Of a stretch of 60,460 nucleotides of DNA, positions 18,583-34,716 are shown in pieces (position 1 is the first letter of the stretch; every line of letters begins with the position of its first letter). The notes beneath the pieces are model-generated. The model was given only the letters and a program-made list of their open reading frames with translations, had not been told where the DNA came from and searched no databases. The translations under genes and the position numbers were made by a program. Location of the stretch: NCBI GenBank assembly GCA_009692425.1, contig SHZF01000021.1:1-60460 (forward strand), written 5' to 3'. The DNA is from Myxococcales bacterium (GTDB lineage Bacteria; Myxococcota_A; UBA9042).

Positions 18583-20363
18583 TGCAGTGCAGCCGCGTGC
18601 AGCGGCCCGCCCGCGCGCGCTGCGGCGAGAGCGGCCGCGACCCGATCGACGAGGCCCGCCACGGGCGTCTCGAAGCGCTCGCCCGTGCGCCGGATCTTGA
18701 CTTCGACGACTCCATCCTGGGCCTTGCGCCCACACACGATGTGCAGCGGGTAGCCCACCAAGTCTGCGTCGTTGAACTTGACGCCGGGCCGCTCGTCGCG
18801 GTCGTCGCGCACGACGTCGATCCCGCGGGCCTCGAGCGCGGCCTCGATCGCTTCTGCCGTCGCGGCCTGCGGGCCATCGATGGCCAGAGGCAGCACCACA
18901 ACCGGGTACGGCGCCAGCCCGACCGGCCAGCAGATGCCGCGCTCGTCGTGATTCTGCTCGATCGCAGCCGACACGATGCGCGTCACGCCGATGCCATAGC
19001 ATCCCATCTCAAAGGGCTTTTCTGTGCCGTCTTCGGCGACGAACGTGGCGTTCATCGCCTGGGAGTACTTCTGGCCCAGGTAGAACACGTGGCCCACCTC
19101 GATGCCGCGAAAGCCGCGCAACGCCGCCCCGCACTGGGGGCATGGGTCGCCGGGCACCGCCATTCGGATGTCCGCGACGGTAAGACCGGAGCAGTCGCGG
19201 ACCGGAACGACACCCTGCCGATGTGCTTGTTTTTCGTTCGCGCCGCACACGGCAGTGGTCAGGGCCATCACCTCGGCATCGGCCACGCAGCGGACGCCGC
19301 CGCCGTGCCCCAGGCCCCCGTTGCCCCCGAGAGCGCCGGAACCGTCCGCAGCCACCGGACCCACGTACCCGGGCGGCAGGCCGGTGGCCTTCGCGAACCA
19401 CGCGGCGTCCGCGAGCGCGACCAGGCCGGCGCCGAGGTGGGCCTTTACCTTGACCTCGTTGGCTTCGCGGTCACCGCGCACAAAGGCGGCGACGGGCTGG
19501 CCGTCAGCCTCGTACAACACGGCCTTGATCATCTGCCGGGGCGTGCAGCCGAGCGCCGCGCACACCATGTCGATCGTTTTCGCGCCCGGCGTGGCCACGA
19601 TTGCCGATGGCCCGGCGTCCCCGGGCAAGCTGGCGCGGGCTGGCGCGGGACTCGGGCACTTCTCGACGTTGGCCGCGTACGTGCACGCGCCACACGCCAC
19701 GAGGGCGTCTTCTCCAGAATCCGCCAAAACCTGGAATTCATGCGACATGCTGCCGCCGATCGCGCCGGTGTCCGCCTCGACGGGTCGGAACGCCAAGCCC
19801 ATTCGCTCGAATGTCCGCACGTACGCGTCATACATCGTGCGGTAGCTCGCATGGGCGCCCGCCACGGTCGCGTCGAACGAGTAGGCATCCTTCATCACGA
19901 ATTCGCGGCCGCGCATCAGACCGGCACGGGGCCGCATCTCGTCGCGGAATTTCGTCTGGATCTGATAGAAATTCAACGGTAACTGGCGATAGCTGCGCAC
20001 GTCCTTGCGCGCCAGATCGACCACGACCTCTTCGTGGGTCGGCCCGAGGCAAAACTCCGCATTCTTGCGGTCTTTCAAGCGCAACAGCTCCGGCCCGTAC
20101 TTCTCCCAGCGCCCCGACTCCTGCCACAGTTCGGCGGGCACTACGGCCGGCAGGAAGACTTCGAGCGCACCGGCCCGGTTCATCTCTTCGCGCACGATGG
20201 CCTTGACGCGCTCGACGACGCGGACCCCCAGCGGCAGGAAGCTGTAGATGCCTGCCGCCACCCGCCGGATGTACCCGCCGCGCACGAGGAGTTGGTGCGA
20301 GACGGTGTCGCCGTCCTTCGGCGGATCCCGCAGCGTGGGCAGATGCAAGCGGCTGGCGCGCAT
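18579..20363 (-). CDS. proS: prolyl-tRNA synthetase (bacterial type with editing domain)
   Basis: Charges tRNA-Pro. The start MRASRLHLPTLRDPP at 20363 has GGAG 8 nt upstream and gives 594 aa, close to the E. coli enzyme (572). Class II motifs are present: motif 1 around the RRVAAGIYSFLPLG segment, motif 2 (FRDEMRPRAGLMRGREFVMKD) and motif 3 (CYGIGVTR). Between motifs 2 and 3 lies the INS editing domain that clears mischarged alanine (VATPGAKTIDMV, KAVLYEADGQPVAAFVRGD). The C-terminal anticodon-binding domain ends the protein. It is the first gene of proS-pyrF-rlmB. Confidence 0.97.
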   Translation of the reverse strand: MRASRLHLPTLRDPPKDGDTVSHQLLVRGGYIRRVAAGIYSFLPLGVRVVERVKAIVREEMNRAGALEVFLPAVVPAELWQESGRWEKYGPELLRLKDRKNAEFCLGPTHEEVVVDLARKDVRSYRQLPLNFYQIQTKFRDEMRPRAGLMRGREFVMKDAYSFDATVAGAHASYRTMYDAYVRTFERMGLAFRPVEADTGAIGGSMSHEFQVLADSGEDALVACGACTYAANVEKCPSPAPARASLPGDAGPSAIVATPGAKTIDMVCAALGCTPRQMIKAVLYEADGQPVAAFVRGDREANEVKVKAHLGAGLVALADAAWFAKATGLPPGYVGPVAADGSGALGGNGGLGHGGGVRCVADAEVMALTTAVCGANEKQAHRQGVVPVRDCSGLTVADIRMAVPGDPCPQCGAALRGFRGIEVGHVFYLGQKYSQAMNATFVAEDGTEKPFEMGCYGIGVTRIVSAAIEQNHDERGICWPVGLAPYPVVVLPLAIDGPQAATAEAIEAALEARGIDVVRDDRDERPGVKFNDADLVGYPLHIVCGRKAQDGVVEVKIRRTGERFETPVAGLVDRVAAALAAARAGGPLHAAALQ

Positions 20364-20463
20364 GGCAAAGTCTCCGCGCCACCGCCCCGGCCCGCCGGAA
20401 CCGACGCGGCCCGCGGCAGCCAGCGCACGGCCGCGCATGAATCAGGCGAAACGGATGCCGCGG

Positions 20464-23400
20464 CTAGAGTTCGTACGTCGCGTGCATCGACCGCATGAGA
20501 TCGAGCAGGCTGACGCGGAACTGGTACTCCGAGAACAAGTAGCTGGCCTGCAGCGTTGCGAGGTCCGGGAATTTGTCGAGTTCCTTCTGCGCGGCCTTTA
20601 CGGCCAGACAGCCGGGGTTCATCAGGTCAGTCGACGTCTTCTGTGCGATGTACGTCTTGCCCGACAGTGGGTCGGTGAACTCGCACTTTTCCGTGCCGCC
20701 CGGCAGCGTGATCGCCGCCTGGTTGCCCTTCAGGAAGATGCGGCTGACGTCCATGAAGCTGCGGTCCCAGCCGCGCTGCAGCAACGCCATGCCGTACTGC
20801 GCCGCCAGCAACGGCATCCGGAACCGACTCGACGGGAAGAACGGGCGGGCGTCCGGGTAGATGCGGTACTTGATGCAGCCCTTCATGTCGGCTGCCACGG
20901 TGCCAGGAGGGAACGCCTTCGCGTCCGCGCACGCCTTGCGCTGTTGTTCGGCGCCCGGACCCACGAACGTCGGCGCGACGATGATGTCGTCGTCTGCCAC
21001 CTCGGTGCCGCCGTGCAGCATGAGCCAGCCGACCGGGTTCTCGTCCTCGACGTTGATCGCCGAGTAGATGTTCATGAGTTGGCGCGGGAACGCGCTGAAG
21101 AAGCTCACGAGGAAGCGCCGCTGATCTTCGGACTCGTTGACGGCCTGGAAACGGGCCATCGTCGGGTCCGACAGGAAGATGAACGCGGCGAGCCGGTCGT
21201 AGATCTGGCCACCTGACGTCGGCCGCTGCAAGTATCCGCCGCCCCAGCCGCCGTACAACTGCCGGGAACCGGACGTCTCGTCGAGGTAGTGGGGGTCGCC
21301 GGTATTCTGGTCATAGTTGTTGTACGGCTCGAAGCGCAGGCGCTTGGCGTTCCAAGCGTAGATGCCGGGGCTCGGCCGCTGCAGTACGCCGGCCATCGTA
21401 TTGAACGTGTTCAGCATCGCGTACGATCCCGCCAGGCCGCCGTTCGGGTCCTGATCCCACTCGCGACCGTAGCGCTTCTTCCACCACCCGTTCTTGTTGT
21501 AGGTCGCAAAGTCGACCATCCAATACTGGAACTGCCGCGTGGCGCGCCAGAACGCCCCCTGCACCCGGCCCGAATAGTTGTTGGTGTGGAACGTCTCTGA
21601 ATCACGGCTGTAGCCGTAGAAGTACCAGTACTGCTCGTAGTCGTCGAGCGAGTTGCGCGCGATCTCGTAGGCGTCGGCGCCTTCGTCACCCGTCGCGCAC
21701 GTCGCGGTCTGGCCGTTGATCTCGTCCGAGCAGAAGCGATAGGGCACTTCGACGATGGCGGCACCGTTGGCACCCTTGGTCTTGGCGCAGAACTTTTCCT
21801 CCCCCATCGCCTGGCACTGGGAGCCGGCGGCGCAGTCCGCATCGGCCGCGCAGCGGTCGCCCTTCAAGTCCGACCACGCGACGTGCTTGCGGTTGTACAT
21901 GTTGTCGATCGCATCCTTGGCACCTTTGCCCGATGCAAAGTAGCGCGGCAACGACGACCAGTGGACCCGGCGCGTTAGGATGTTCATCGGGTGCGTGCCC
22001 TGCTGCGTCACCATCGTCACGGCCGGGTTCTCGTCGTTGGGTGTTGCGAGGTAATCCTTCAGGGGCGGCAGGTCGCCTCCGCCGGCGAGACCGACAGCTG
22101 CGGGCGGAGCGGTGTCCAGCGCGGGCGGGTTCGCGAACGTCTCCACCATGTCGCCGTACGCGAACTTCAGCGCGGCCTTGTCGTACAGGCCCACGCCTTG
22201 GTCGCGGCCGTTGAACTTTGCTGTGTAGTCCATCACCGACGCGAGTTGCTGCGTGCGGATGTGCTCGCGCCCCTGCTCCGGCGTGTCCTGCTGCCACGGG
22301 TTGACGACGTCGGTCCGGTTGTTCGAATCAAGCTTGAGTTCCCAGTACTTGCGGTGGTAGTTCAGCGCGTCGGTCGAAGCCTCGAAGTTGTGGCGCAGGC
22401 CGAGCGTGTGGCCGACCTCGTGCAACTGCGTGCCCTTGTAGATGCGCTGCCACAGTTCGAGCTTGACCTCTTCGCGCAGGCGCTGGACGACCTCGCGGCC
22501 GATCTCCTGGGTGACGCGCACCGTCTCGTCCGTCGTGTCCGAGTACAACGGGCCCGGCAGGAAGCGGTACTTCTCCGCATTCGGCTGGGCGGCGTTCGCC
22601 TGGTTCACGGCGAGGCGCAAGTCCTGCATCAGGTCCGCCGTCGAGCAGCGGTGCCAGCGCAGGTCCGGGCCATTGGTGCGGCAGATGCGGCCCTTTGCGG
22701 TGCCCTGCGACTCGTAGTCACCTGCCTTGGCGCACGCATCGCTCGTGGCGCGGCTGCCGTCCTTGAAGTTGTCGAAGATGGTCGGAACCTTGGCGTCGAG
22801 GTACGCCTTGCATATCTCCGCGTCGAACCGGCGGCCGTACTCCTCGGCCATGCCGACCAAGGCGCCGTCGGCGAAATCGGCGAGGTGGATCGTGCGCTTG
22901 CCGAGCTCAGCCACGACCTTTTCACGGGCGCGGATGGCAGCGGTGTGGCCCCACTGCGCGATCGACATGCGCTTGAGGTCGTCCGGGCTCACGGTCGATG
23001 CCGTGCCGGCCTTGACGCGCGGGTCCTTGAACAAGGTGTGGGCGAAGTACGAGTCGTCGCCGCTCACCAGCATCGCGTCGATGCTCGGGTTGGACTGGAT
23101 GCGGGCCATGCGCGATTGGGCCCACGTCCCTGCATCGTCGCCGTGCTCCAGCCCGAGGGTCTCCAGGCGCTGGCGTACGTCGGGGTCGATCAGGTTCTTG
23201 ACCATGCCCTGGACGTCTGTCGTGCTTTTCGGCACCTTGGTGTCGTAGCCACGCTTGACCGCACGCGAGACATTAAAGAGTTTTTCGCTGGCGCGCTTGA
23301 TGTCGTTGAAGTCCTTGATGCCGGACTGCAGTTCAATCGCTTGCATCGCCGCCTCGGCGCCGAGCTTCATCACGCCCGAGTACGCATGGGCACTCGCCGA

Positions 23401-25083
23401 AATCGTCTCGCCCGTGATCGGGTCGGCCGCAGAGGGACCGTAGCCATACAGGCCCGCCTGGTTGGGCGCAGGCACGGCGTGCATGAAGCTGTAGCGCAGG
23501 TCGCCGAAGCGGTGCGGCTGGCTCATGTTGCGGCAATACTTGCCGTACTTCGTGCCCGCGTAGGTCTTGCTGCCGAGCTTGAGGTCCGGGTATTCCGCGG
23601 TGGCGGCTCCCTCAGACTTCGCCTTGACACCCGCCAGACTCGAATTCTCGCATACGATGAACATCGGGAAGTCGGGCTTCTTGCCCTTGCGAAACTCGAC
23701 GACCTGATTGTACGGGTCCGACCACGCTTCGCCGATCTCGACCGACTGCTTCACGAGTTCGCGCGGGTGGTCGTCGTTGAGGTAGTACACGATCGGGACC
23801 GGCGACATCTTCGTGTAGTCGAAGCCGCCCTTCCACATCGCGCCCGCGCTGCCGGCCGGCTTGCACGCATTGTTGCCTTCCATGCCATCGACCACGCTCG
23901 CCTTGGGGTCAACGTAGCACTTCACGTACTTGTCCCAGATGCGGTGGCGCTGGGCGCGGCGCACGGCGTTGTTGAAGATGTTGCCAAACTCGATGTCGAA
24001 GGCTGGCCGCTCGCTGCGGAAGAAGCCGAATTTCTCGAACTCGACGTCGTCCATCTCGCGCGACACATAGCGGCGCTCGTCGCCGGCCTTGTACTGCGGC
24101 ACTTCGAGGAAATAGCTGCGCGCGCGGATTTCCTCGGATGTGCAGTCGAACACGCCGCCGATGTACCAAGGGTAGAAGAAGCAGATGGGGATCATGCCGA
24201 AGCCGCTCAGGTACGTCGTCGGCGCACCGACCACCCAGCGGTTCATGAACGTGATCGTCTTCTGCGTGCCGTACTCCGGCGACTTGGTCTCGCTCATCTC
24301 GAACTGCTCGTCCTCGGGAGCGACGTCGCCCTCGTACAGCGAGCCGAACGTGCCGGCGAGCCCAGCCGCGTTGACCTCTTCGCTCAGCACGGTGCCCGCA
24401 CCCCACGCGACACGCATGTATTCGCGCTGATACCACTTGCGGTCGGTCGTGTTCTCGCCCTTGACGTTGGTGGTCTCGCCCGTCGCTGCCGAATAGGCGT
24501 ACTGCACGTCGAAGTGCGAAATGGCCCACGCCCACATCGGCGCGCCCCGATACACGTAGCGCGGCGTCTTGCGAACGCAGAAGCCGTGCCAGTCCTCCTC
24601 ACCCGTGAGCGTTGGCTTGGCCGCGTCGGCGCACCAGGCGTCCTTGCCGCACGTGGAGTTGTCGCCCGGCGCGCATTTGATTTTCTGGTAGTCCTCCGGC
24701 ATCGCGGAGACGACCGGCTTGCCCTTGGCGTCCTTCACAGCGATGTCGACGTCCGATCGCTGCGCGTAGGCCTCCGAACCCACCTGGAATTCGTAGGTAC
24801 GGTAGAAGATGAGGTTCTTCTCCTGCACTTCGAACACGCCGCGCACGAGCGAACTCATGGCGCCGGGAAACGAGGAGGCCGACGTGAACGAAGCGTGGAC
24901 CACCGTGTTGCGCAGGTACCACTCGCGGCCGAGGATGTCCGCCTTCTTGACGGCGTTTGGCTGCACTTCGTTGATTTCGGGCCGGTCCTGGGCGCATGCC
25001 AACGCGCTGGTCAGGGCGGCGGTCAGCGCGAGCCGGCTCAAGTAGCGGTGCGGGCGCTGGGCGAGGTGGGTCGGGGCGTTCAT
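20464..25083 (-). CDS. giant exported zinc metalloprotease, Met-zincin family (paralog 1)
   Basis: A 1,539-aa predicted surface or periplasmic metalloprotease. The start at 25083 (MNAPTHLAQRPHRYLSRL) has GGAGA 7 nt upstream. A signal peptide ends in SALAC, an imperfect lipobox, so it may be a lipoprotein. The zinc motif HEVGHTLGLRH has His888, Glu889, His892 and His898, followed by the Met-turn SVMDY (Met951). The upstream segment YGPSAADPITGETI resembles the DPRTGE strand of Met-zincin (DUF4953/DUF5117-type) proteases. Several short Cys clusters (for example CAADADCAAGSQC) may form disulfide knots. It is about twice the usual family size. The next gene upstream is its larger paralog. The substrate is unknown. 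Confidence 0.8.
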   Translation of the reverse strand: MNAPTHLAQRPHRYLSRLALTAALTSALACAQDRPEINEVQPNAVKKADILGREWYLRNTVVHASFTSASSFPGAMSSLVRGVFEVQEKNLIFYRTYEFQVGSEAYAQRSDVDIAVKDAKGKPVVSAMPEDYQKIKCAPGDNSTCGKDAWCADAAKPTLTGEEDWHGFCVRKTPRYVYRGAPMWAWAISHFDVQYAYSAATGETTNVKGENTTDRKWYQREYMRVAWGAGTVLSEEVNAAGLAGTFGSLYEGDVAPEDEQFEMSETKSPEYGTQKTITFMNRWVVGAPTTYLSGFGMIPICFFYPWYIGGVFDCTSEEIRARSYFLEVPQYKAGDERRYVSREMDDVEFEKFGFFRSERPAFDIEFGNIFNNAVRRAQRHRIWDKYVKCYVDPKASVVDGMEGNNACKPAGSAGAMWKGGFDYTKMSPVPIVYYLNDDHPRELVKQSVEIGEAWSDPYNQVVEFRKGKKPDFPMFIVCENSSLAGVKAKSEGAATAEYPDLKLGSKTYAGTKYGKYCRNMSQPHRFGDLRYSFMHAVPAPNQAGLYGYGPSAADPITGETISASAHAYSGVMKLGAEAAMQAIELQSGIKDFNDIKRASEKLFNVSRAVKRGYDTKVPKSTTDVQGMVKNLIDPDVRQRLETLGLEHGDDAGTWAQSRMARIQSNPSIDAMLVSGDDSYFAHTLFKDPRVKAGTASTVSPDDLKRMSIAQWGHTAAIRAREKVVAELGKRTIHLADFADGALVGMAEEYGRRFDAEICKAYLDAKVPTIFDNFKDGSRATSDACAKAGDYESQGTAKGRICRTNGPDLRWHRCSTADLMQDLRLAVNQANAAQPNAEKYRFLPGPLYSDTTDETVRVTQEIGREVVQRLREEVKLELWQRIYKGTQLHEVGHTLGLRHNFEASTDALNYHRKYWELKLDSNNRTDVVNPWQQDTPEQGREHIRTQQLASVMDYTAKFNGRDQGVGLYDKAALKFAYGDMVETFANPPALDTAPPAAVGLAGGGDLPPLKDYLATPNDENPAVTMVTQQGTHPMNILTRRVHWSSLPRYFASGKGAKDAIDNMYNRKHVAWSDLKGDRCAADADCAAGSQCQAMGEEKFCAKTKGANGAAIVEVPYRFCSDEINGQTATCATGDEGADAYEIARNSLDDYEQYWYFYGYSRDSETFHTNNYSGRVQGAFWRATRQFQYWMVDFATYNKNGWWKKRYGREWDQDPNGGLAGSYAMLNTFNTMAGVLQRPSPGIYAWNAKRLRFEPYNNYDQNTGDPHYLDETSGSRQLYGGWGGGYLQRPTSGGQIYDRLAAFIFLSDPTMARFQAVNESEDQRRFLVSFFSAFPRQLMNIYSAINVEDENPVGWLMLHGGTEVADDDIIVAPTFVGPGAEQQRKACADAKAFPPGTVAADMKGCIKYRIYPDARPFFPSSRFRMPLLAAQYGMALLQRGWDRSFMDVSRIFLKGNQAAITLPGGTEKCEFTDPLSGKTYIAQKTSTDLMNPGCLAVKAAQKELDKFPDLATLQASYLFSEYQFRVSLLDLMRSMHATYEL

Positions 25084-25183
25084 CTGAGGTCTCCGATTTG
25101 CGTGGTCCGCGTTCGGGTGCGCTGCTCGCGCGGGCGGGTTCAGGTGCGCATGGTGCGCGTTCGGGGGGGCCAAGTGGGCCAGG

Positions 25184-28100
25184 CTAGTTCAGGCCGATCG
25201 AGCCGTAGATGCCGTAAAGGTTGCGGAACTGGTCGACGAGCTCCATTTCCTTCTTGATCGTGTTCGCGATGACTTCGCGCTCGGCGCCTGTGGCCTTGCT
25301 GAGCCACGTCTTCGCGCACGCCACACCGTCGCTGCACAGGCCGTCTTGGCACGTCGACCCCGAGGCACAGCCCGACTTGAGCTTGTTGAGCTTGCGCAGG
25401 GTCTCGTATGTCGGCGAATACTGGTCCGACGTGTAGTTCGGCTTGGGCGCCACGTAGGTCTTCTTGCCCCACGGGTCCTCGAATTCGGCAACCTCCAGCT
25501 TCGTTTCGGCCCCACCGACCTTGCCTTGGCCGAACGTGTACTGGCCGCCGGAGCCCTTGAGCCACACCGCCATCGAGTCGGTGTAGCTCGGGTCGAAGCC
25601 GGCCGGCAGGTTCGCGATGGCCTCGACCGACGCCATCAGCCGCAAGCTCGGGTTCATCACCGACGGCACCACGCGCGCTTGCGTGGCGGGAGCCGGCTTG
25701 AAGGGGTTGTAGGGGATGAACTGCTTGGTCGTCGGGTGGAACGTGCCGCCAATGCGCTGGACGTCGCCCGCCGCCATGCCGCCGAGCACGTCGGCCAGTT
25801 GCTTCGGGTAGATCGTGTTGAAGCCGATCGCCGTGCCGCGGAACAGCGGAAGTTGCTCGCCCACGTAGTCGGTCAGGAAGTTGGCCGTCGAGTTCGTCAT
25901 CATGCCGATCGAAGCCGCCTTCTCCCAGTAGGAGCCGATGACCTTCGGGTGGTCGTAGTAGTAGTAGCCCTTCTTCGTTGCGAACGCCGTCCACGGGAAC
26001 TTGCCGAGGCCGATCGGTACGTTGGCACCCGCCTCACAGCCTGCGGCGCCCACTTCGTACGACACGTTCGTGTACGTGTTCGAGTCCTTGTCGAAGGCAT
26101 AGCAGCCCGGCGCCGGCGACGTGATCGATGCGGTGAAGCGCTTGAACGCGTCTTCCGACGCCCGCTTGAGCGGGTAGAGGCCGAACAGGCCGTTGTCGAA
26201 CTGGTCCCACCAGCCGTAGACGCGGTAGATGTTGTTGAACAGGGCGTAGAAGCGGCCGGCGTCGGCCATTGGCCCGAGCCAGCGATCCTGGATGCGCGCC
26301 ATGTAGCCCGCCGGGCTGCCGCCGCGGGCGAACCAGAGGCGCTCGCGCTTGAACGCGTCGAACAGGTAGTACTCGTTGAGCATCTCGCCGGAGTGGAAGA
26401 CGATCTCCTCCGGGCTCGAGCCCATGTCGAAGCGGTAGCAGCCGAGGTTGCCAGCGTACTCGTCGGAGCAGTACTTGTAGGGCACCTCGAAGAAGGTCTT
26501 GTCGGCGTCGCCGCGGCCGTAGTGTTGGTTGTTGTCCATTTCCTGCTCGAGGTACTGCGCCGGCACCGACTCGCGTTTCTTGTTCAGTTCCGGTGGCATC
26601 CAGTCGTTGGGATACGCCAGCGACGTCGTCACGCGGCCGCCCCACTGCCAGTCGGCAGTGTCTTGCTTCCACGAGACGTTTTCGAAGGACGTGCCCTGGT
26701 TCTTCGCATAGCGCCGGGTCTGCTTGGTCAGGTAGCTCGTGTCGGCGTAGACCTCGAGCATTTCGCCGTAGCCGTACTTGATCGCCGCGTAGTCGTACTT
26801 GCCGAGACCCCACACGTCGGCGTGGACACGCTGGCCGTAGTCCATGACCGTCGAGTACTGGTACTCCGTGCGGCGGTTGTCGATTTCCTTCGCCGTCATG
26901 TGCGGGCGCGGCACGTATTTCTTGAGCTCTTCGAGCTTCGACTCCTGCTCGACGAGCGTGCCGGCGAACTGGCCGGTCAACGCGGCGGCGCAGAAGCCGC
27001 CCTGGCACAGTTGGCCATCGGTGCAGGCCGCGTCGTCCTTGCACGCGACCTTCTCGTGGCACAGCCCGCCCTTGCAGAAGGCGCCGTCGCCGCAGGCCGC
27101 GTCGCTCGTGCACGCCACTGTGAACGGCGTCTTGCCGTGGCACGTGCCGACCTGGCTGCCGTCTTGATCGACGCACTTGGTCTTGGCGCACTTCGCACCG
27201 CCCGGGCACTCCGCGTCGGCCGTGCAGGCCTTGAGCACGCACTTTTCGCCGAATTCGTCGTTCAGGCAGAACGAGTCGGCCGACACCACGCCCGAGGGCG
27301 CATTCAACTGGCCGCAGACCACGGCCTCCTTTTCGCGGCCCTTGTCCGGATCGAAGTACGGGTCGAAGTAGTTCAACAGGTCCATCGAGGCTTCAAAGTT
27401 GTGGCGCAGGCCGACGGTGTGGCCGACCTCGTGCTCCATGACGCCGCGGAAAAGCGCAACCGACAGCGCGGTCCGCAGTGCGTCGCCCTTGTAGCAAGCC
27501 TTATCGAAGACCTTCGTGTCCGAACCCGCGTACTTGTCGGTCGGCGTCTGGCCGGGCTGGCAGCGCATGCGCTTGGCCAGGCCGAGCAGCGACGCGTCCT
27601 CGAATTCGGCCGGCGTGATGCTGTGGATGCCGAGCAACTGCAGGCGGCGCTTCTCGTCAATGGCCCGCTTCGGCGTCGCCCATCCCAACGGACTGATCTT
27701 GCCGAGCAACTCCGGTCCAATCTGCTCGCCGGGCTGCACGGCGCCCTCGGACATCACGAGCGCGACCTCGTCGTTGATTAGTGCCCGCTCCACCGACGTG
27801 CCCTTGAGCTTGTCGAACTGCGCGTACACCTGCTTGATGTCGAAGCTCGGGATCGCTTTGTCGAGTACCTTCTGGAGGTTCTTCGGGTTCTCCAGATCGT
27901 GGACCAGCTTGTCAGCTTCGAGCGGCAGCAGGCCGGCACCGCGCGCGAGGTCGGCCAACCGCAGTGTCGATTCAGACTTGGCGCGTTCGAGCGCCTCGGT
28001 GTCGGTCTCTTCGTCTGCGCCCGCACCGGCGGGAAGCGCCGCGCCCCACAGCGACTTGTCCTTCGCCGTGGTGGACTGCTGGTTGATATAGTCGCGGATG

Positions 28101-30592
28101 TACTTGCCCGACGCGACATCTTTGGGGTCCAGATCGCCGTTGAGCAGATCGACGAGGTCCTTGGCGTACTGGGCGTACGTCACCATCGCGGAGCCGTACA
28201 CGTTCGCCGTCGCCCAGATGGTCTCGCCGGTGTCCGGGTCGCCTGCCGAGGGGCCGTAGCCCAGCGGCGAAGACGCATTCGTCTGCGTCACCCAATACAG
28301 GAAGTTGTAGCGGCCGTCGCCGATGATCTTCGGTTTGGCAGCGTCCGACACGAAGCCACCGTCCGCCGTGTCGGTGCACGGGTTGTGGTCGACTTCCTTG
28401 CCGTTGACCTTCTTCTTCGTCCAGTAGCGGCAGTCGTTGTACGTGCTGAAGTTGCCGCGTTCGTCGGCGCTGCACGACTTGAGCGACCGCGTGTAGACGT
28501 TCTCGCACAGCACGAAGATGTGCGGCACGGTCGCCTTGAGGTCCTCGCGCTGCTTGTAGTCCGCCGCCGTCAACATCTGGCGCCAGCCGACGCAAGTGCC
28601 GACACCGTCTACGCTCCGGCACGAGACATCGGCGCGATCGCCGGACTTCAGGAACACGACGTGCTGGGTGTCGCCGAAGGTGGCGAGGAAATCCGTCGCC
28701 TGACCGTACTCGAGGGCGTCGGCCTTGCGCGTGCCGTTGATGCCGACTTCGAGCGCGTCGCCTTCCGACGTCTTGCCCTGGCGCGCGGCCACGCCGTGCA
28801 GAATGCGCGCGCCGACCTTGCCGACTGCCGAATGCAACACCGCGATCTGGTCGCCGCCGAAGTACACGACGTGGACGACGTCGCCGGATGCGAGCTTGAC
28901 GTTGGGCAGCTTGACCGACACCGCGCCGGCCGTCACGGTCAGTTCCACGGATTTGCTGCTCGGCTTGACTACGGTGCCCTGATCGGCGGCCTTGACGACG
29001 CCCGCGGCGTACTTCGCACCGTCGATCTTCGCCAGTCCACCGATGTCGAGAGAGGCCGCCGCGCTGCCGGGCGTGGCATTCAGGAACGCCACCCAGGCGG
29101 TGCCGGCCAGCTTCGGGCGGGCGTCGGGGGCGTCGTCGAGCACGGTGACCTCGCCCTTGCCGTCCTTGCCCGCGCCGACGATCAGCCGGTTCGACTTGAT
29201 GCTCTTGAACGCCACAGTGCCCTGGGCAGCGGCGTGCGCGGAGCAGTCGGCGTTGACCTTGCAGAAGCGCTCGCCGAAGCGAGACTGCCCGTCCGCGAAG
29301 CCTTTGCCCCACTTCGCTTCCCAGAACCACAGCCACGAGACCATGTCGCGGAAAACGTCGTTCCACGAATCGGCCGTGTCGTATTCGGCGGCGATGTGGT
29401 TGGCGGGGTGGTCGGCCGACAGGTGGTAGATGATGGGGCGCGTGCCACGTTGGGTGTATTCGATGCGGGCACCGGTGGAGCACTTGCCGGCGGGGCGGCC
29501 GTCAGGATCCATCGCGAACCAGTCGGCCTGATCGCATACGGCGGGGGCCGCACAGTCGCGATTCGTCAGGCAACGCGTTTCCTTGCCGGCGGCGTCCTTG
29601 GTGGCCGTGAAGTTCTTGGAGTGTTCCCAGATGTTCCAGCGTTGCGCCTTGTAGTCGTGGCCCGAATACGTCAGGCCGTAGTCCTCGTCGTAGCGGTAGC
29701 GATCCGCGAGGAAGAAGCCGAATTTGTCCGCCGCGTCGCGGTTGTGGTACGGCCGGATCTCGTAGTCGTTGACGCGCTTGGGGGACACGCGGCGGTACGC
29801 GACGCGGACGTCGAATTGGGCGCCGGAGCAGTCGCCGGGAGCCAGCGAATATGTTGAGCACGCACCCGTCGACATTGGCTGGCCGAACATCCGGCGCGTG
29901 AAGTGGAAGTAATCCACCGCCTTTTCCTTGCCTGCGCGGTGCATGTAGAAGCGGTTCGGGTCGTCGCCGTCATGCTCCTGGACATAGTGATCGACGGGGC
30001 TGTACTTCATCGAACCTTGCGGGAACATGACGTTCATCAGGGCATTGCCCATCCAGTCGACGCGGATGTACTTGCGCTTCCACCACGCGTTCAGGCTGGA
30101 GTTTTCCGTGAGTTCGTTCGTCTGTGCGCCCGTGGATTTGTTGAAGTTCCGGATGCGGTCGAAGTGCGAGACGATCGGGTACATCGCCACCGGATTGCCG
30201 AGGACCAGGTCGATGAACTCGTGCTCGTGGCCTGCGCGCCAGTAGGTGCGGATCTTGCGCTTCGTCCACTTCGCGTCGGCACCCAGGACGCGTTCGGTGA
30301 ACGGGTAGGCGACCAGCCAGTTTTCCTGGATGTCGAACAGCAACTTGCCGTCTTCGCCGCCGAAGTTCTGCTGGCCGACGAAGCCGAAGCCTGCGTTGGC
30401 GGGCATGTCGCTGACGACGGCGATCTCGTACCACACGCCATGCAAATCGGCTTTGCGGATGTAGTTGGCCTGCGTGCGGTCGATCAGGCCGTCGTTGCCG
30501 ACCTCTTCGACGCAGCCGGTGGTGGCGGCGGCGAGCGCGGCGGCCAACAAGGCGGGCAGGACGGACAGCGCGGTGGGGCGAAGGAGCTTCAT
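25184..30592 (-). CDS. giant exported zinc metalloprotease, Met-zincin family (paralog 2, with Cys-rich and DUF4397-like inserts)
   Basis: A 1,802-aa paralog of the next gene. The start MKLLRPTALSVLPALL at 30592 has GGAG upstream. The signal peptide ends AATTGC, suggesting a lipoprotein. The zinc motif HEVGHTVGLRH has His1054, Glu1055, His1058 and His1064. The Met-turn TVMDY has Met1250, 186 residues after the last His, against 53 in paralog 1. The gap is filled mainly by about 115 residues with 16 Cys in an EGF/knottin-like rhythm (C..DAAC.DG..C..G.C). A beta-sandwich region near residues 475-620 resembles DUF4397. YGPSAGDPDTGETI matches paralog 1. It lies 100 bp upstream of paralog 1 and 110 bp downstream of the barrel gene. 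No substrate can be named. Confidence 0.8.
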   Translation of the reverse strand: MKLLRPTALSVLPALLAAALAAATTGCVEEVGNDGLIDRTQANYIRKADLHGVWYEIAVVSDMPANAGFGFVGQQNFGGEDGKLLFDIQENWLVAYPFTERVLGADAKWTKRKIRTYWRAGHEHEFIDLVLGNPVAMYPIVSHFDRIRNFNKSTGAQTNELTENSSLNAWWKRKYIRVDWMGNALMNVMFPQGSMKYSPVDHYVQEHDGDDPNRFYMHRAGKEKAVDYFHFTRRMFGQPMSTGACSTYSLAPGDCSGAQFDVRVAYRRVSPKRVNDYEIRPYHNRDAADKFGFFLADRYRYDEDYGLTYSGHDYKAQRWNIWEHSKNFTATKDAAGKETRCLTNRDCAAPAVCDQADWFAMDPDGRPAGKCSTGARIEYTQRGTRPIIYHLSADHPANHIAAEYDTADSWNDVFRDMVSWLWFWEAKWGKGFADGQSRFGERFCKVNADCSAHAAAQGTVAFKSIKSNRLIVGAGKDGKGEVTVLDDAPDARPKLAGTAWVAFLNATPGSAAASLDIGGLAKIDGAKYAAGVVKAADQGTVVKPSSKSVELTVTAGAVSVKLPNVKLASGDVVHVVYFGGDQIAVLHSAVGKVGARILHGVAARQGKTSEGDALEVGINGTRKADALEYGQATDFLATFGDTQHVVFLKSGDRADVSCRSVDGVGTCVGWRQMLTAADYKQREDLKATVPHIFVLCENVYTRSLKSCSADERGNFSTYNDCRYWTKKKVNGKEVDHNPCTDTADGGFVSDAAKPKIIGDGRYNFLYWVTQTNASSPLGYGPSAGDPDTGETIWATANVYGSAMVTYAQYAKDLVDLLNGDLDPKDVASGKYIRDYINQQSTTAKDKSLWGAALPAGAGADEETDTEALERAKSESTLRLADLARGAGLLPLEADKLVHDLENPKNLQKVLDKAIPSFDIKQVYAQFDKLKGTSVERALINDEVALVMSEGAVQPGEQIGPELLGKISPLGWATPKRAIDEKRRLQLLGIHSITPAEFEDASLLGLAKRMRCQPGQTPTDKYAGSDTKVFDKACYKGDALRTALSVALFRGVMEHEVGHTVGLRHNFEASMDLLNYFDPYFDPDKGREKEAVVCGQLNAPSGVVSADSFCLNDEFGEKCVLKACTADAECPGGAKCAKTKCVDQDGSQVGTCHGKTPFTVACTSDAACGDGAFCKGGLCHEKVACKDDAACTDGQLCQGGFCAAALTGQFAGTLVEQESKLEELKKYVPRPHMTAKEIDNRRTEYQYSTVMDYGQRVHADVWGLGKYDYAAIKYGYGEMLEVYADTSYLTKQTRRYAKNQGTSFENVSWKQDTADWQWGGRVTTSLAYPNDWMPPELNKKRESVPAQYLEQEMDNNQHYGRGDADKTFFEVPYKYCSDEYAGNLGCYRFDMGSSPEEIVFHSGEMLNEYYLFDAFKRERLWFARGGSPAGYMARIQDRWLGPMADAGRFYALFNNIYRVYGWWDQFDNGLFGLYPLKRASEDAFKRFTASITSPAPGCYAFDKDSNTYTNVSYEVGAAGCEAGANVPIGLGKFPWTAFATKKGYYYYDHPKVIGSYWEKAASIGMMTNSTANFLTDYVGEQLPLFRGTAIGFNTIYPKQLADVLGGMAAGDVQRIGGTFHPTTKQFIPYNPFKPAPATQARVVPSVMNPSLRLMASVEAIANLPAGFDPSYTDSMAVWLKGSGGQYTFGQGKVGGAETKLEVAEFEDPWGKKTYVAPKPNYTSDQYSPTYETLRKLNKLKSGCASGSTCQDGLCSDGVACAKTWLSKATGAEREVIANTIKKEMELVDQFRNLYGIYGSIGLN

Positions 30593-30702
30593 GGGTACGG
30601 ACTCCGGAGGCGCGGGTGCAAGAAAGGCCAGGTTTCGGTCAGAGCAAGCGTTCGGGTATTGGCTGCGCGCTACGCTTTTTGGGGAAGCCGCGCGAAAAAT
30701 GT

Positions 30703-31824
30703 TCAGAAGCTGCGGGCCAGGCCGACGCTGACGCTGGAATAGTTGTCCGACAAGGACCGGAAATCCCAGAACGGGAAGCGCAGGGTCTTGTTGTCGGCGC
30801 TGTACGGAGGCGACGCGGTGAACGTGCCGAGGCTGACGGATGTGAGCTTGTCCTCGCCAAGCGAGTACGACACGTCGAGCGTGCCCCACTGCGTGTCGCG
30901 GCGCATGCGGCCGGGCTTGGCGTATTCCGACGTGTATTCGTCTTTCGGGAAGGACTGGTAGCCGAAGTTGTTGAATATGTAGTAGCCGGCCGCGAACGAC
31001 AGGCGATCGCTCGCCTTGATGTCGACGCTCAGGGACTGGCGAAAGAAGAAGCTCGAGTTCTGGATGCCGAGCAGGACGTCGCTCGGTCCCACGCCTTCGG
31101 CGCCGCCCTGACGCGGCAGCACCCCCGGCGAGCCGGGTTCATTGTGCAGCACGCGATTCGGGTACTGGTTGAAGTTCTTGGCGAACGACGAACCGTAAGC
31201 CACCGTGACGATGCCGATCGCCCGCTTGAGGGAAATCGACGACGCGATCTTGAGCCAACGGGTCGCGAACTTCGCATCGCGTGAGACGGGCAGTTCGACT
31301 CCCAGGCCAGCCGAGAATCCAAAGCCACCCGGGAGCTTCATCGCTTCGGATTTGCCGTCGGCGTTCATGGTCTGGGGCGACCACGACAGGCTCAGCGCGG
31401 TGTCGAACAGCGTCGTCTGGTACAGGTGGACCTGGTCGCGGTCGCCGTTCGTCTCGATGTTCTTGTCGAGGCGCTGCTTGGCCGAGAACGACAGGCCGGA
31501 CGTGATCTTGTAGGCGGCGCCCAGCGCCACGCTGGCATCAGCTCCGGCGCGCTGCTGCTCACCCGGAACGAATGTGCCGCCGTCGATCGAGTACGACAGG
31601 TCGAGTGAGCCGCTGAGCGGGAAATTGTCGGAAGGCTTCGGTCGCTCTGCCTTCTGGGCGGTGGCGTCGGCCGTGGCGTCGGCTGGCGGCGTCGAGGGGC
31701 CGTCGATCCCGAAAGCGAGCCCGGGCACCAGGCAGGCGCCGAGGACGCCCAACTTGGCAAACCGCCCGGGGAATTCCCGGTTGGTTGCGCAGCCCGTCCT
31801 GAAGCGGGAAACCGATATCGACAT
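30703..31824 (-). CDS. predicted outer membrane beta-barrel protein
   Basis: A 373-aa exported protein. The start MSISVSRFRTG at 31824 has GGAGG upstream; the open frame extends further but without support. The N-terminus has a signal-like hydrophobic stretch ending in PGLAFG. After a short Ala/Pro linker the sequence alternates polar and hydrophobic residues with many aromatic girdle positions (GSLDLSYSIDGG, GFGFSAGLGVELPVS, SVSVGLARSF). It ends in Phe, the usual signal for BAM-assembled barrels. I recognise no specific family. It is the first gene of a probable operon with the two giant metalloproteases, so it may serve as their export route, anchor or partner. Confidence 0.65.
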   Translation of the reverse strand: MSISVSRFRTGCATNREFPGRFAKLGVLGACLVPGLAFGIDGPSTPPADATADATAQKAERPKPSDNFPLSGSLDLSYSIDGGTFVPGEQQRAGADASVALGAAYKITSGLSFSAKQRLDKNIETNGDRDQVHLYQTTLFDTALSLSWSPQTMNADGKSEAMKLPGGFGFSAGLGVELPVSRDAKFATRWLKIASSISLKRAIGIVTVAYGSSFAKNFNQYPNRVLHNEPGSPGVLPRQGGAEGVGPSDVLLGIQNSSFFFRQSLSVDIKASDRLSFAAGYYIFNNFGYQSFPKDEYTSEYAKPGRMRRDTQWGTLDVSYSLGEDKLTSVSLGTFTASPPYSADNKTLRFPFWDFRSLSDNYSSVSVGLARSF

Positions 31825-31862
31825 GGGCGCCTCCGGAACTTGCCGGAAAAAAGAGAGCGAGG

Positions 31863-31891
31863 ACGGTAGCAGGCATACAGCAGGCGCGCAA
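31863..31891 (-). promoter_or_regulatory. predicted promoter of the barrel-metalloprotease operon
   Basis: On the minus strand TTGCGC (31886-31891) and TACCGT (31863-31868) are separated by 17 bp, about 40 bp before the barrel start codon. The divergent plus-strand gene begins at 31965, so this 140-bp gap probably holds control sites for both directions. Confidence 0.45.
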
Positions 31892-31964
31892 GGACGTTTT
31901 CGCGACGGCGCCAGCTTGCCTCCGCTGCCGGCTTGGGGCATGCAGGGCGCTGGAGGAGGGGACG

Positions 31965-32483
31965 ATGGCGAAGGGTGTCCAGCGACGGCGGTCTGACCTG
32001 CAACGCATTCCGGCGATGTTGTGCGGATTGTACCGCACCACCGTGCCGATGCGGGGCCATGCCGACCACCTCGGGCCCGACCAACTGGTCATGCTGCACG
32101 ATCACCGACCGGAATCGATGCCATACGTGCTGTTTCCCGCCCGCAACGAAGACAACCAGTGGGTGTTTGAAGACGACCCGCATACGGCCGAAGACGCCGA
32201 CTTCCTGCTTGGGCTCGTCTCGCTCCGGCCCGAAGGGTACTACGTCGTGGCGCACGATTTGGCGTTGTCCGACGACCCCGATCACAAACTGGCAGAGCGA
32301 TCGCTCGTCATGGTCGGCTATACGCGGCAAGGTCGCGTGTTGTTGTTTCCCGCGCGCTTCCAGGGCCTGACCGTGCAGTTCGCCACGGAGGGGTACCCGT
32401 TTGATCCCGATGACGTGTTGGACGCGCTGACGCCGGCGAATTTCGATGTGCCGACCGATGGCGACGATCGCACGGTGCACTGA
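31965..32483 (+). CDS. hypothetical protein, acidic, 172 aa
   Basis: I do not recognise this protein. It starts at the ATG at 31965, directly after GGAGGAGGGG, an excellent Shine-Dalgarno. There is no signal peptide and no membrane segment. The sequence is acidic in its middle and C-terminal thirds (EDDPHTAEDADF, DPDDVLDALTP) and alternates predicted beta strands (YVLFPARNED, GRVLLFPARFQG). The repeated phrase LFPAR suggests two related halves. It is divergent from the barrel operon and followed by a 208-bp gap. It is probably cytoplasmic. Codon use matches the neighbours, which supports a real gene. Confidence 0.7.
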   Translation: MAKGVQRRRSDLQRIPAMLCGLYRTTVPMRGHADHLGPDQLVMLHDHRPESMPYVLFPARNEDNQWVFEDDPHTAEDADFLLGLVSLRPEGYYVVAHDLALSDDPDHKLAERSLVMVGYTRQGRVLLFPARFQGLTVQFATEGYPFDPDDVLDALTPANFDVPTDGDDRTVH

Positions 32484-32691
32484 CCGGGGTTACAGGTGTT
32501 TTCAAAGCCGCGAAGCACTGCAAAGACGTATTGCACCGCGGGCCAAGTGGCGGTAGACCTCTTGGGTCGCTCGTGCGCCGTGGGCCGGGCCGCGCCTGCC
32601 CGGTCACAGACCGTTTGGTGAGGGTCGCGCGTCAGGGTTTGGCTCAGGCGTCGGGCCGCGGCGCGCGCTGCGGCGCGGCAGGGAGGTCGCT

Positions 32692-34716
32692 GTGCGTTTT
32701 ACGTGTCCGAGCTGTGCAAAGTCGTACCGCATGCCACCTGAGCGACTCGGTGCGGCAGGGCGCGCGCAGGTCAGTTGCCCGAATTGCAAGGCGACGGTGC
32801 TCGTGCGGGCCACAGGGGGCGAGAATCTGGAGTGCCGACTTGGCCAGGCCCATGATTCGGCGCCGGTGATTCACGCGGCGTTGGTGCGACCGGCGTCCGG
32901 CGGCTTCGGGGCCAGTCCGATCGCGGTTCCCGCGCAGGCTCCCGGCGCGGCTCCCGCGCAGGCTTACGGCGCGGCTCCCGCGCAGGCTTACGGCGCGGCT
33001 CCCGCGCAGGCTTACGGCGCGGCTCCCGCGCGGGCTCCCGGCGCGGCTCCCGCGCAGGCTTACGGCGCGGCTCCCGCGCGGGCTCCCGGCGCGGCTCCCG
33101 CGCAGGCTCACGGCGCGGCTCCCGCGCGGGCTCCCGGCGCGGCTCCCGCGCGGGCTCCCGGCGCGGCTCCCGCGCAGGCTTACGGCGCGGCTCCCGCACC
33201 GCTGCCTTCGGACGTCGCATGGTTCGTCGCGATCGGCCGCGACCGGCAGGGGCCGATGACGCGCGCGCAGTTGGCCGGCCTCCTGCGCGCCGGGACCGTG
33301 AATCCTGAGTCGCTCGTCTGGTGCAAGGGCATGACAAATTGGACGAAGATGGTTGATGCGCCGCAGCTGGCGAGTCTCGTCGCGTCCGCCTCCGTCGGCG
33401 CCGCCGCAGCTCCGGTTCCCGCGCCGGAGCCGGCCGCGCCTCGGCCCGCCGCAGCGGTCGCCGCGCCTCGTCTGGCCGCCCAACCCGCACCGTTGGCGGC
33501 GGCCGGCCCTGCGGCACCGCAACCGAGCGCCGCGCCGCGACCTTCATCGCCGCTGCAGCCGGCCGCACGGGTTGGTGCTGCGGCCCAACCCGTCGCGAGG
33601 CCCGCGCCGGCCGCACTCGCCCCGAAGCCGGTGTCCGCGGCCAGGCCTGCCGACTCCAAGGCTGCGTCCGCAGCCCAGCCCGCCGATTACGAAGACGCTG
33701 GACCCACATTGGAACAACCGTTGCCCCTTTTCGGCAAGGCCGCACCGTCCTCCAAACTCGTACGCGAGCCGCGCCCCGCTGGTGGCGATCGGTTGGGCGC
33801 AGGCAAACCCGCAGCGCCCGAACTGAACAGCATGCAGGCCGACGCCCATGCCGGAGCGTTCTTTTCCCACGACCTCGACAACGTCGAATTTCAACTGCCG
33901 GACCCGAATAGGCACAAGCCGACGAAGGAGGAGTACCAGAACCTGCTGCAGGAATTCTCGGTGATGTTTCGGCTCGACAAGCGCACCAAGCGACAGAAAG
34001 TCGGCATCGCGGTGACGATGGGCGTGCTCGTCGTCGGCGTCATCGTGTTCGGTGTAATGCTGAAGATCGACGGCGACCGCAAGCGCTCACTGATGAGCGA
34101 TACCAAGGCGATTCTCGGCATGTTCGCGCTGCAGTACCAAACGAGCGTGACAATGGACGTCGGCACGGAGGACCCGGAGGCGGCGGCCCAGATCGTGGCC
34201 GTGCCGGGCGCGCCGCCGCCGGTCAAGCCGAAGCAACAGGTGCAGACGAGCCAACTGGCCAAGCACCTGGCCGGCAAGATCCAAGCGCGCCGCAAGGCGT
34301 CTGCGCGCACCGTCAGCATGGGACTTTCGGCGGCCGACCAGCGCGCCCTCGACGTGGCGACGCGGGCTGCACAGGCCGATGCCGTGGCGCGGGCGCTCGG
34401 CGGTGTCGGTGGCAAGGTCGAGAGCGTGCAGATGGTCGGCATCGCCAAGGAAAAGGTCTCGACCGCAGAACTGAACCGCATGTGCGACAATGCCAGCGGC
34501 GACTTGCGCAGTTGTGCCAAGGGGGTGCTGGGCGACGAGAATGCGTCGTTCCGCGTGTCGTTTACGGTCGGTCTCGGCGGCAAGATCGAAGCCGTCAAGG
34601 CCATCGAGGATGGCAAGCAGAATGGAGAGCTCACGACATGCGCTCAGGCCAAGCTGGGCCGCAAGAGCTTCACGGCCCAACCAGAGCCCGTGACGCACTC
34701 CTGTCGCGTGAACTAG
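32692..34716 (+). CDS. GltJ/AgmX-like protein: zinc ribbon, Pro/Ala repeats, GYF domain, one membrane span, TonB-like C-terminus
   Basis: A 674-aa inner-membrane protein starting at GTG (32692) five nt after GGGAGG. In order: an MJ0042-type zinc ribbon with Cys5, Cys8, Cys29 and Cys32; a Pro/Ala repeat (residues 80-167) from eleven 24-bp units; a GYF_2 domain (WFVAIGRDRQGPMTRAQL to about residue 232); a long Ala/Pro linker; a single membrane span (about 437-457); and a periplasmic part whose last ~80 residues look TonB-like (SFRVSFTVGLGGKIE), with several Cys. The order matches myxobacterial GltJ (AgmX), which links cytoplasmic regulators to the envelope gliding machinery. No other gliding genes are visible, so a general envelope-coupling role is equally possible. 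A weak TTGCAC-17-TAGACC promoter lies at 32531-32559. Confidence 0.75.
   Translation: MRFTCPSCAKSYRMPPERLGAAGRAQVSCPNCKATVLVRATGGENLECRLGQAHDSAPVIHAALVRPASGGFGASPIAVPAQAPGAAPAQAYGAAPAQAYGAAPAQAYGAAPARAPGAAPAQAYGAAPARAPGAAPAQAHGAAPARAPGAAPARAPGAAPAQAYGAAPAPLPSDVAWFVAIGRDRQGPMTRAQLAGLLRAGTVNPESLVWCKGMTNWTKMVDAPQLASLVASASVGAAAAPVPAPEPAAPRPAAAVAAPRLAAQPAPLAAAGPAAPQPSAAPRPSSPLQPAARVGAAAQPVARPAPAALAPKPVSAARPADSKAASAAQPADYEDAGPTLEQPLPLFGKAAPSSKLVREPRPAGGDRLGAGKPAAPELNSMQADAHAGAFFSHDLDNVEFQLPDPNRHKPTKEEYQNLLQEFSVMFRLDKRTKRQKVGIAVTMGVLVVGVIVFGVMLKIDGDRKRSLMSDTKAILGMFALQYQTSVTMDVGTEDPEAAAQIVAVPGAPPPVKPKQQVQTSQLAKHLAGKIQARRKASARTVSMGLSAADQRALDVATRAAQADAVARALGGVGGKVESVQMVGIAKEKVSTAELNRMCDNASGDLRSCAKGVLGDENASFRVSFTVGLGGKIEAVKAIEDGKQNGELTTCAQAKLGRKSFTAQPEPVTHSCRVN
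32929..33192 (+). repeat. 24-bp tandem repeat, eleven units, in the GltJ-like gene
   Basis: Eleven consecutive 24-bp units, each encoding PA(Q/R)A(Y/P/H)GAA. The units differ only at the Q/R codon and the Y/P/H codon, so they form a few exact classes in irregular order. The length is a multiple of 3, so gain or loss of units keeps the frame. Confidence 0.95.

Follow-up and report, generated by a model that had tools for sequence, protein, structure and literature searches.

A predicted outer-membrane barrel and two paralogous putative lipoprotein Met-zincins encoded side by side in a class of Myxococcota

Do three neighboring genes of a Myxococcales bacterium, one for a predicted outer-membrane barrel and two for very large exported metalloproteases, encode a single functional unit, and what would such a unit do? 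The genes reside in a stretch of 60,460 nucleotides (contig SHZF01000021.1, C28 in our numbering), here termed the window, from a genome of 4.94 Mb that is 96% complete. All three are consecutive open reading frames on the minus strand, exactly where the original prediction had placed them (Table 1), and the sizes given for the proteases, 1,802 aa for P2 and 1,539 aa for P1, are likewise correct, as is their spacing of 100 bp. The gap between the barrel gene and the gene for P2 amounts to 110 bp. Start codons were assigned by a simple lipobox/RBS rule. A promoter-like site had been suggested to precede the barrel gene. A scan of positions 20300-32700 for sigma-70-like sites, which leaves other promoter types outside its reach, returned 0 sites with an average of 1.2 in shuffled sequences, and the suggestion is thus not upheld. 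The neighbors of the trio in the window are UP172, a GYF protein, proS, pyrF and a SpoU-type methylase. UP172 is a 172-aa open reading frame without a Pfam match (31965-32483, plus strand) that diverges from the barrel gene, exhibits 43-48% identity in genomes of genus g8 and is kept where the trio is absent. The zinc-ribbon/GYF_2 protein (32692-34716, plus strand) features long AQAPGAAPAQAYGAAP repeats and is regularly encoded near the trio in family f1.

Table 1. Positions of the three genes in the window and of sequence features in the encoded proteases.
Feature	Position	Strand	Details	Basis
Barrel gene	30703..31824	(-)	ATG start 31824, 373 aa	ORF, AF2 model, fold matches, orthologs
P2 gene, putative lipoprotein Met-zincin	25184..30592	(-)	ATG 30592, 1802 aa	ORF, PF16313 E 1.5e-9, class-wide orthologs
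P1 gene, putative lipoprotein Met-zincin	20464..25083	(-)	ATG 25083, 1539 aa	ORF, PF16313 E 5.2e-9, class-wide orthologs
P1 lipobox	24994..24996	(-)	Cys30 (SALAC-AQD), then conserved EINEVQPN...K	Cys in 40/40 orthologs
P2 lipobox	30512..30514	(-)	Cys27 (ATTGC-VEE), then LIDRTQAN...K	Cys in 30/31 orthologs
P1 zinc motif	22384..22422	(-)	HEVGHTLGLRHNF, residues 888-900	His ligands 40/40, Glu 39/40; PF16313
P2 zinc motif	27395..27433	(-)	HEVGHTVGLRHNF, residues 1054-1066	invariant in 31/31 orthologs; PF16313
P1 Met-turn	22225..22239	(-)	SVMDY	Met in 40/40 orthologs
P2 Met-turn	26837..26851	(-)	TVMDY	Met in 31/31 orthologs
P2-specific DUF4397-like insert	28523..29131	(-)	~residues 488-690	hhalign vs P1

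The first protein of the trio had been proposed to be a barrel, and this is supported by a 12-stranded AF2 model (pLDDT 77) that begins near residue 44 of 373 and in which no long helix is predicted. The protein starts with an N-terminal signal sequence and ends with ...RSF. Foldseek placed FapF closest to the model among PDB folds, followed by general porins, the COG4313 channel and NanC. The match to FapF is weak (TM ~0.46, 9% identity), and the three 12-stranded barrels FapF, COG4313 and NanC were all matched with TM values of ~0.40-0.47 at ~10% identity.

Both proteases contain HEVGHT(L/V)GLRHNFEAS and a Met-turn with MDY, just as had been claimed. Proteins of the P1/P2 type are predicted lipoproteins of 1.2-2.0 thousand aa with Cys-rich inserts, in which a long insert separates the DP.TGE segment from the zinc helix. 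In support of the DUF4397-like insert of P2, PF14344 was matched in 7 of 19 P2 orthologs, while the P2 copy from the window itself stayed below significance. A complete HExxHxxGxxH zinc site together with the Met-turn is present in the 71 orthologs with a single Glu exception, a P1 ortholog in which Gly replaces the catalytic Glu. This one sequence among 40, as well as the very large non-catalytic regions and inserts, would fit proteins whose role lies mainly in structure or binding and whose catalytic centers are vestigial. Such a role is highly improbable, however, as the zinc ligands and the Met of the Met-turn are otherwise invariant in all 71 sequences (40 P1, 31 P2) with identities down to ~33-35%, and both proteins are probably active as proteases. 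A sequence search of the PDB with P1 gave no match; residues 31-1010 of P1 were modeled with low confidence (pLDDT 64), and a fold search with this model yielded no match below E 0.001. A haem conduit of the porin-cytochrome kind was also considered and could be ruled out, since CxxCH is absent from the 40 P1 and the 31 P2 proteins.

A signal peptide with a lipobox Cys is conserved in the orthologs, as expected for bacterial lipoproteins, and P1 and P2 are presumably lipidated and located in the outer membrane. The only P2 ortholog without the Cys, from locus L033, suffers from a mis-chosen start. L033 (CAMDBH010000034.1) stems from a record titled 'Klebsiella pneumoniae' MAG, a label that is almost certainly wrong, and the locus is of the Myxococcota type with 54% identity to the window.

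P1 and P2 had been addressed as paralogs, and their homology indeed spans both proteins, signal peptide and C-terminus included (hhalign E 3e-154, 1228 columns, 23% identity), with BLASTP aligning them in pieces from E 1e-16. The segment YGPSA.DP.TGETI, which had been put forward in the same context, is indeed common to both proteins but does not by itself prove a special paralogy because it is a wider DUF5117/DUF4953 motif. In our tree the P1 and the P2 proteins each group in a monophyletic clade of their own (support 1.0 and 0.998, sampling uncorrected), so that the duplication predates the split of the families of the class and both copies were kept. Judged from sequence comparison, the paralogy of P1 and P2 is ancient and extends over their full length, and both fall into a clade that is divergent within the Met-zincin family DUF4953/PF16313. 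Their PF16313 scores of 36.2 and 38.0 bits lie above the Pfam gathering cut-off of 24.2 bits, and the domain was matched by 19 of 19 P2 orthologs at E <= 0.01. Full-length agreement is lacking, as only model positions 6-35 of 316 (~30) are matched, and it is the zinc motif together with the profile that marks P1 and P2 as divergent members of DUF4953. PF17148 (DUF5117) and PF17162 (DUF5118) were not detected in the class; across the phylum, 2 of 189 genomes contained DUF5117 and 0 of 58 contained DUF5118. Alignment with canonical DUF4953/DUF5117 proteins (L136/L137) extends to the upstream PIVYYLN...DLRY...YGPSA.DP.TGE region (hhalign 98%, E 1.6e-13). In contrast to the DUF5117/DUF4953 proteins, P1 and P2 feature the long insert, Cys-rich inserts and a barrel partner and, in the case of P2, the DUF4397-like insert. 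The genome from which the window originates encodes two further paralogs, both lipoprotein metzincins. One of them (L001:5638-10585, G000:C63) has its own barrel directly upstream, while the other (L002:5323-9393, G000:C53) is encoded without a barrel.

Is the arrangement peculiar to this organism? P1-like matches were obtained in 51 of the 53 genomes near the window, the window's own genome included. When we considered the 46 genomes of the class that are at least 80% complete, 43 contained both P1 and P2 and three contained neither (G007, G019 and G024). P2 and P1 form a same-strand tandem in every locus with enough contig; in genome G044 each of them sits at the end of a different contig, the pattern that a contig break would produce. 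The P2-P1 gap ranges from -1 to 104 bp (median 47, 39 loci) and the gap between barrel and P2 from 18 to 164 bp (median 78, 18 loci). Such short distances are operon-like, and the genes may well be co-transcribed. In 28 genomes from eight families (f1, f2, f3, f6, f7, f8, f9 and f10) a barrel gene immediately precedes P2, and a barrel of the trio type occurs in 40 of the 43 pair-bearing genomes and in none of the three pairless ones (Fisher p 0.0013, uncorrected for phylogeny). Most of the relatives are fragmented MAGs, and the counts are uncorrected for sampling. In families f5 and f12 and in genome G021, in which it resides on another contig, the barrel gene is not adjacent to the pair; in most of these genomes it is found elsewhere. 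No barrel was detected in f5 genomes G033, G042 and G047 despite the presence of the pair.

Two of the genomes without the pair, G007 and G019, belong to the same genus as the pair-bearing genomes G010 and G021. In G007 and G019 (loci L142 and L143) the order UP172-GYF is kept and barrel-P2-P1 is missing there, with other genes including an aspartokinase-like open reading frame at the expected site; G007 also keeps D241. Both genomes retain other metzincins and a different type of barrel. G007 is 94% complete, and the absence of the trio from the locus may reflect either rearrangement or deletion. The trio therefore behaves as one block, the function of which is widely kept and non-essential.

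Myxococcota include predators, and exported metzincins that are large, rich in Cys and present as several paralogs in a genome would suit prey digestion. It had accordingly been speculated that the trio serves the degradation of prey or polymers. P1 and P2 would then be digestive proteases, secreted or surface-bound, that break down prey or polymer protein, and the barrel a porin for product uptake, in line with NanC and COG4313, which appear among the weak fold matches and could point at a small-solute channel. We consider this rather doubtful and found no positive evidence for it. Nearly every genome of the class has kept the block, over sizes of 2.6-7.8 Mb and including those of 2.6-3.5 Mb, and in family f1 it is inherited between housekeeping genes (proS, pyrF, SpoU methylase and the GYF gene). 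Neither a peptide transporter nor another degradative enzyme was seen beside the trio, and the lipid anchors are invariant with no free secreted form. Vertical inheritance beside housekeeping genes in family f1, presence in genomes small and large, and invariant catalytic residues favor a general role in the envelope over prey digestion, without proving it.

Alternatively, the barrel could be a channel in its own right that has no more than an operon or a neighborhood in common with the proteases, which would act alone, for example in periplasmic quality control. Some f5 genomes keep the pair with no barrel next to it or no barrel detected at all, and many families have solitary barrels (f5, f18, f19), both of which are compatible with this idea. 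To us it appears unlikely, since barrel and pair are jointly absent from G007 and G019 and since adjacency of barrel and metzincin genes recurs in eight families that do not belong to the class and once more, at a second locus, in the window's genome. Another 60 loci surrounding barrel homologs were retrieved, of which 52 lie outside the class. A homologous metzincin adjoins the barrel homolog in 18 of the 60. One of these cases belongs to f9, and the other 17 make up the linked loci among the 52 from outside the class, where the partner is again a lipoprotein. In 13 of the 18 the barrel gene is followed by the metzincin gene on the same strand. With a handful of metzincin genes per genome, chance alone would place one within 8 kb of ~1-3% of the barrels, and ~1-2 linked loci would be expected among the 60 if the genes were independent, far fewer than the observed 18 (binomial <1e-12; the loci are related and p is a guide only). 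Barrel-linked single metzincins are spread over the tree. In G196, a genome from outside the class, a barrel homolog is followed by two tandem metzincins (L125:7324-16500, G196:C1:2207500-2224000) that are each other's closest relatives. This duplication is an independent one, so that the arrangement of a barrel ahead of a metzincin tandem has at least two origins.

A metzincin neighbor is lacking in 42 of the 60 loci, including all those from families f18 and f19. The linkage is therefore frequent and not obligatory, and the barrel may also work alone. The neighbors of solitary barrels in families f5, f18, f19 and f30 differ (AdoHcyase, ProRS, aminotransferase, kinase, LonB-like protease, cyclase, bactofilin), and no common function was found among them. 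In one f5 locus (L129:9485-12385) the solitary barrel follows genes for adenosylhomocysteinase and a second-type prolyl-tRNA synthetase with a ProRS-C domain, unlike the window, in which the proS next to the trio is of the editing-domain type. The original prediction of a dedicated gene set is thus well supported by the class-wide tandem, the barrel upstream in 28 genomes of eight families, the joint absence in sister species and the recurrent linkage in other classes. In f5 the pair is not situated beside the barrel. Single proteases without a barrel in relatives had been named as evidence against such a set, and barrel-less single metzincins do exist, so that this objection applies in part.

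We tentatively prefer, at a little less than an even chance, to read the trio as a single unit of function. It would be a proteolytic module that is anchored to the outer membrane, has a barrel as partner and serves to process proteins of the envelope. P2 and P1 would be two non-redundant, catalytically intact Met-zincins, each tethered to the outer membrane by an N-terminal lipid. The cognate 12-stranded barrel would serve as their membrane partner that docks or positions them, possibly in a complex, or passes proteases or substrates across the outer membrane. It may display the proteases, the proteases may gate or cleave it, or the two may share no more than their regulation. The most likely substrates of the module would be proteins of the cell's own envelope or surface, which it would process or turn over.

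A clue to docking may lie directly behind the lipid-bearing Cys. The motif (I/V)(D/N)(R/x)(V/T)Q.N...K, often continued by.F.GEWY, occupies this position in P1, in P2 and in the majority of barrel-linked single metzincins. It is thus kept well outside this species, and two canonical DUF5117/DUF4953 proteins do not contain it. Metzincins without a neighboring barrel from loci L002, L072 and L074 also carry it. The tether that follows the lipid-bearing Cys is commonly variable, and the conserved motif is therefore a plausible docking site and a candidate docking element. A bolder proposal goes further. The barrel would display or dock lipoprotein metzincins via this motif, the class-wide P2/P1 pair would form an obligate two-protease complex, and the whole would represent a lipoprotein-barrel system unrelated to Slam that occurs across several classes of Myxococcota. 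As a package we deem this improbable.

Comparison with established systems yields only partial likeness. In Slam systems, too, a gene for an outer-membrane barrel is found beside lipoprotein genes, with 185 of 353 Slams (52%) adjoining a lipobox protein (PMC5449769). In Slam proteins a TPR domain at the N-terminus is combined with a 14-stranded DUF560 barrel, and their clients contain an 8-stranded TbpB-like domain (PMC5449769). The barrel of the trio differs by its 12 predicted strands and its metzincin partners, and neither a Pfam TPR domain, in a protein of 373 aa in total, nor a DUF560 match was found. The Fap system combines FapF, a 12-stranded trimeric barrel and the best PDB fold match of our barrel, with the protease FapD, a C39 cysteine peptidase (PMC5557850), and thus likewise unites protease and barrel. 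FapF is further characterized by a plug helix and an N-terminal, periplasmic trimeric coiled coil. No coiled coil is seen in the modeled part of our barrel, the proteases belong to a different class than FapD, and amyloid subunit genes are absent from the neighborhood of the trio, which is made up of UP172, GYF, proS, pyrF and the SpoU-type methylase. FapF/FapD therefore offers a functional analogy only for a protease working with a 12-stranded barrel. In agreement with the original prediction, no description of the trio was found within the literature searched, in which DUF4953 is not mentioned, and reports on outer-membrane metalloproteases from myxobacteria contained nothing on the P1/P2 family.

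The conserved barrel partner provides a direct lead to the function of DUF4953 Met-zincins. Should the barrel indeed present lipoprotein proteases, the trio would represent a new system for surface lipoproteins or envelope proteolysis in Myxococcota with a docking motif that can be tested.
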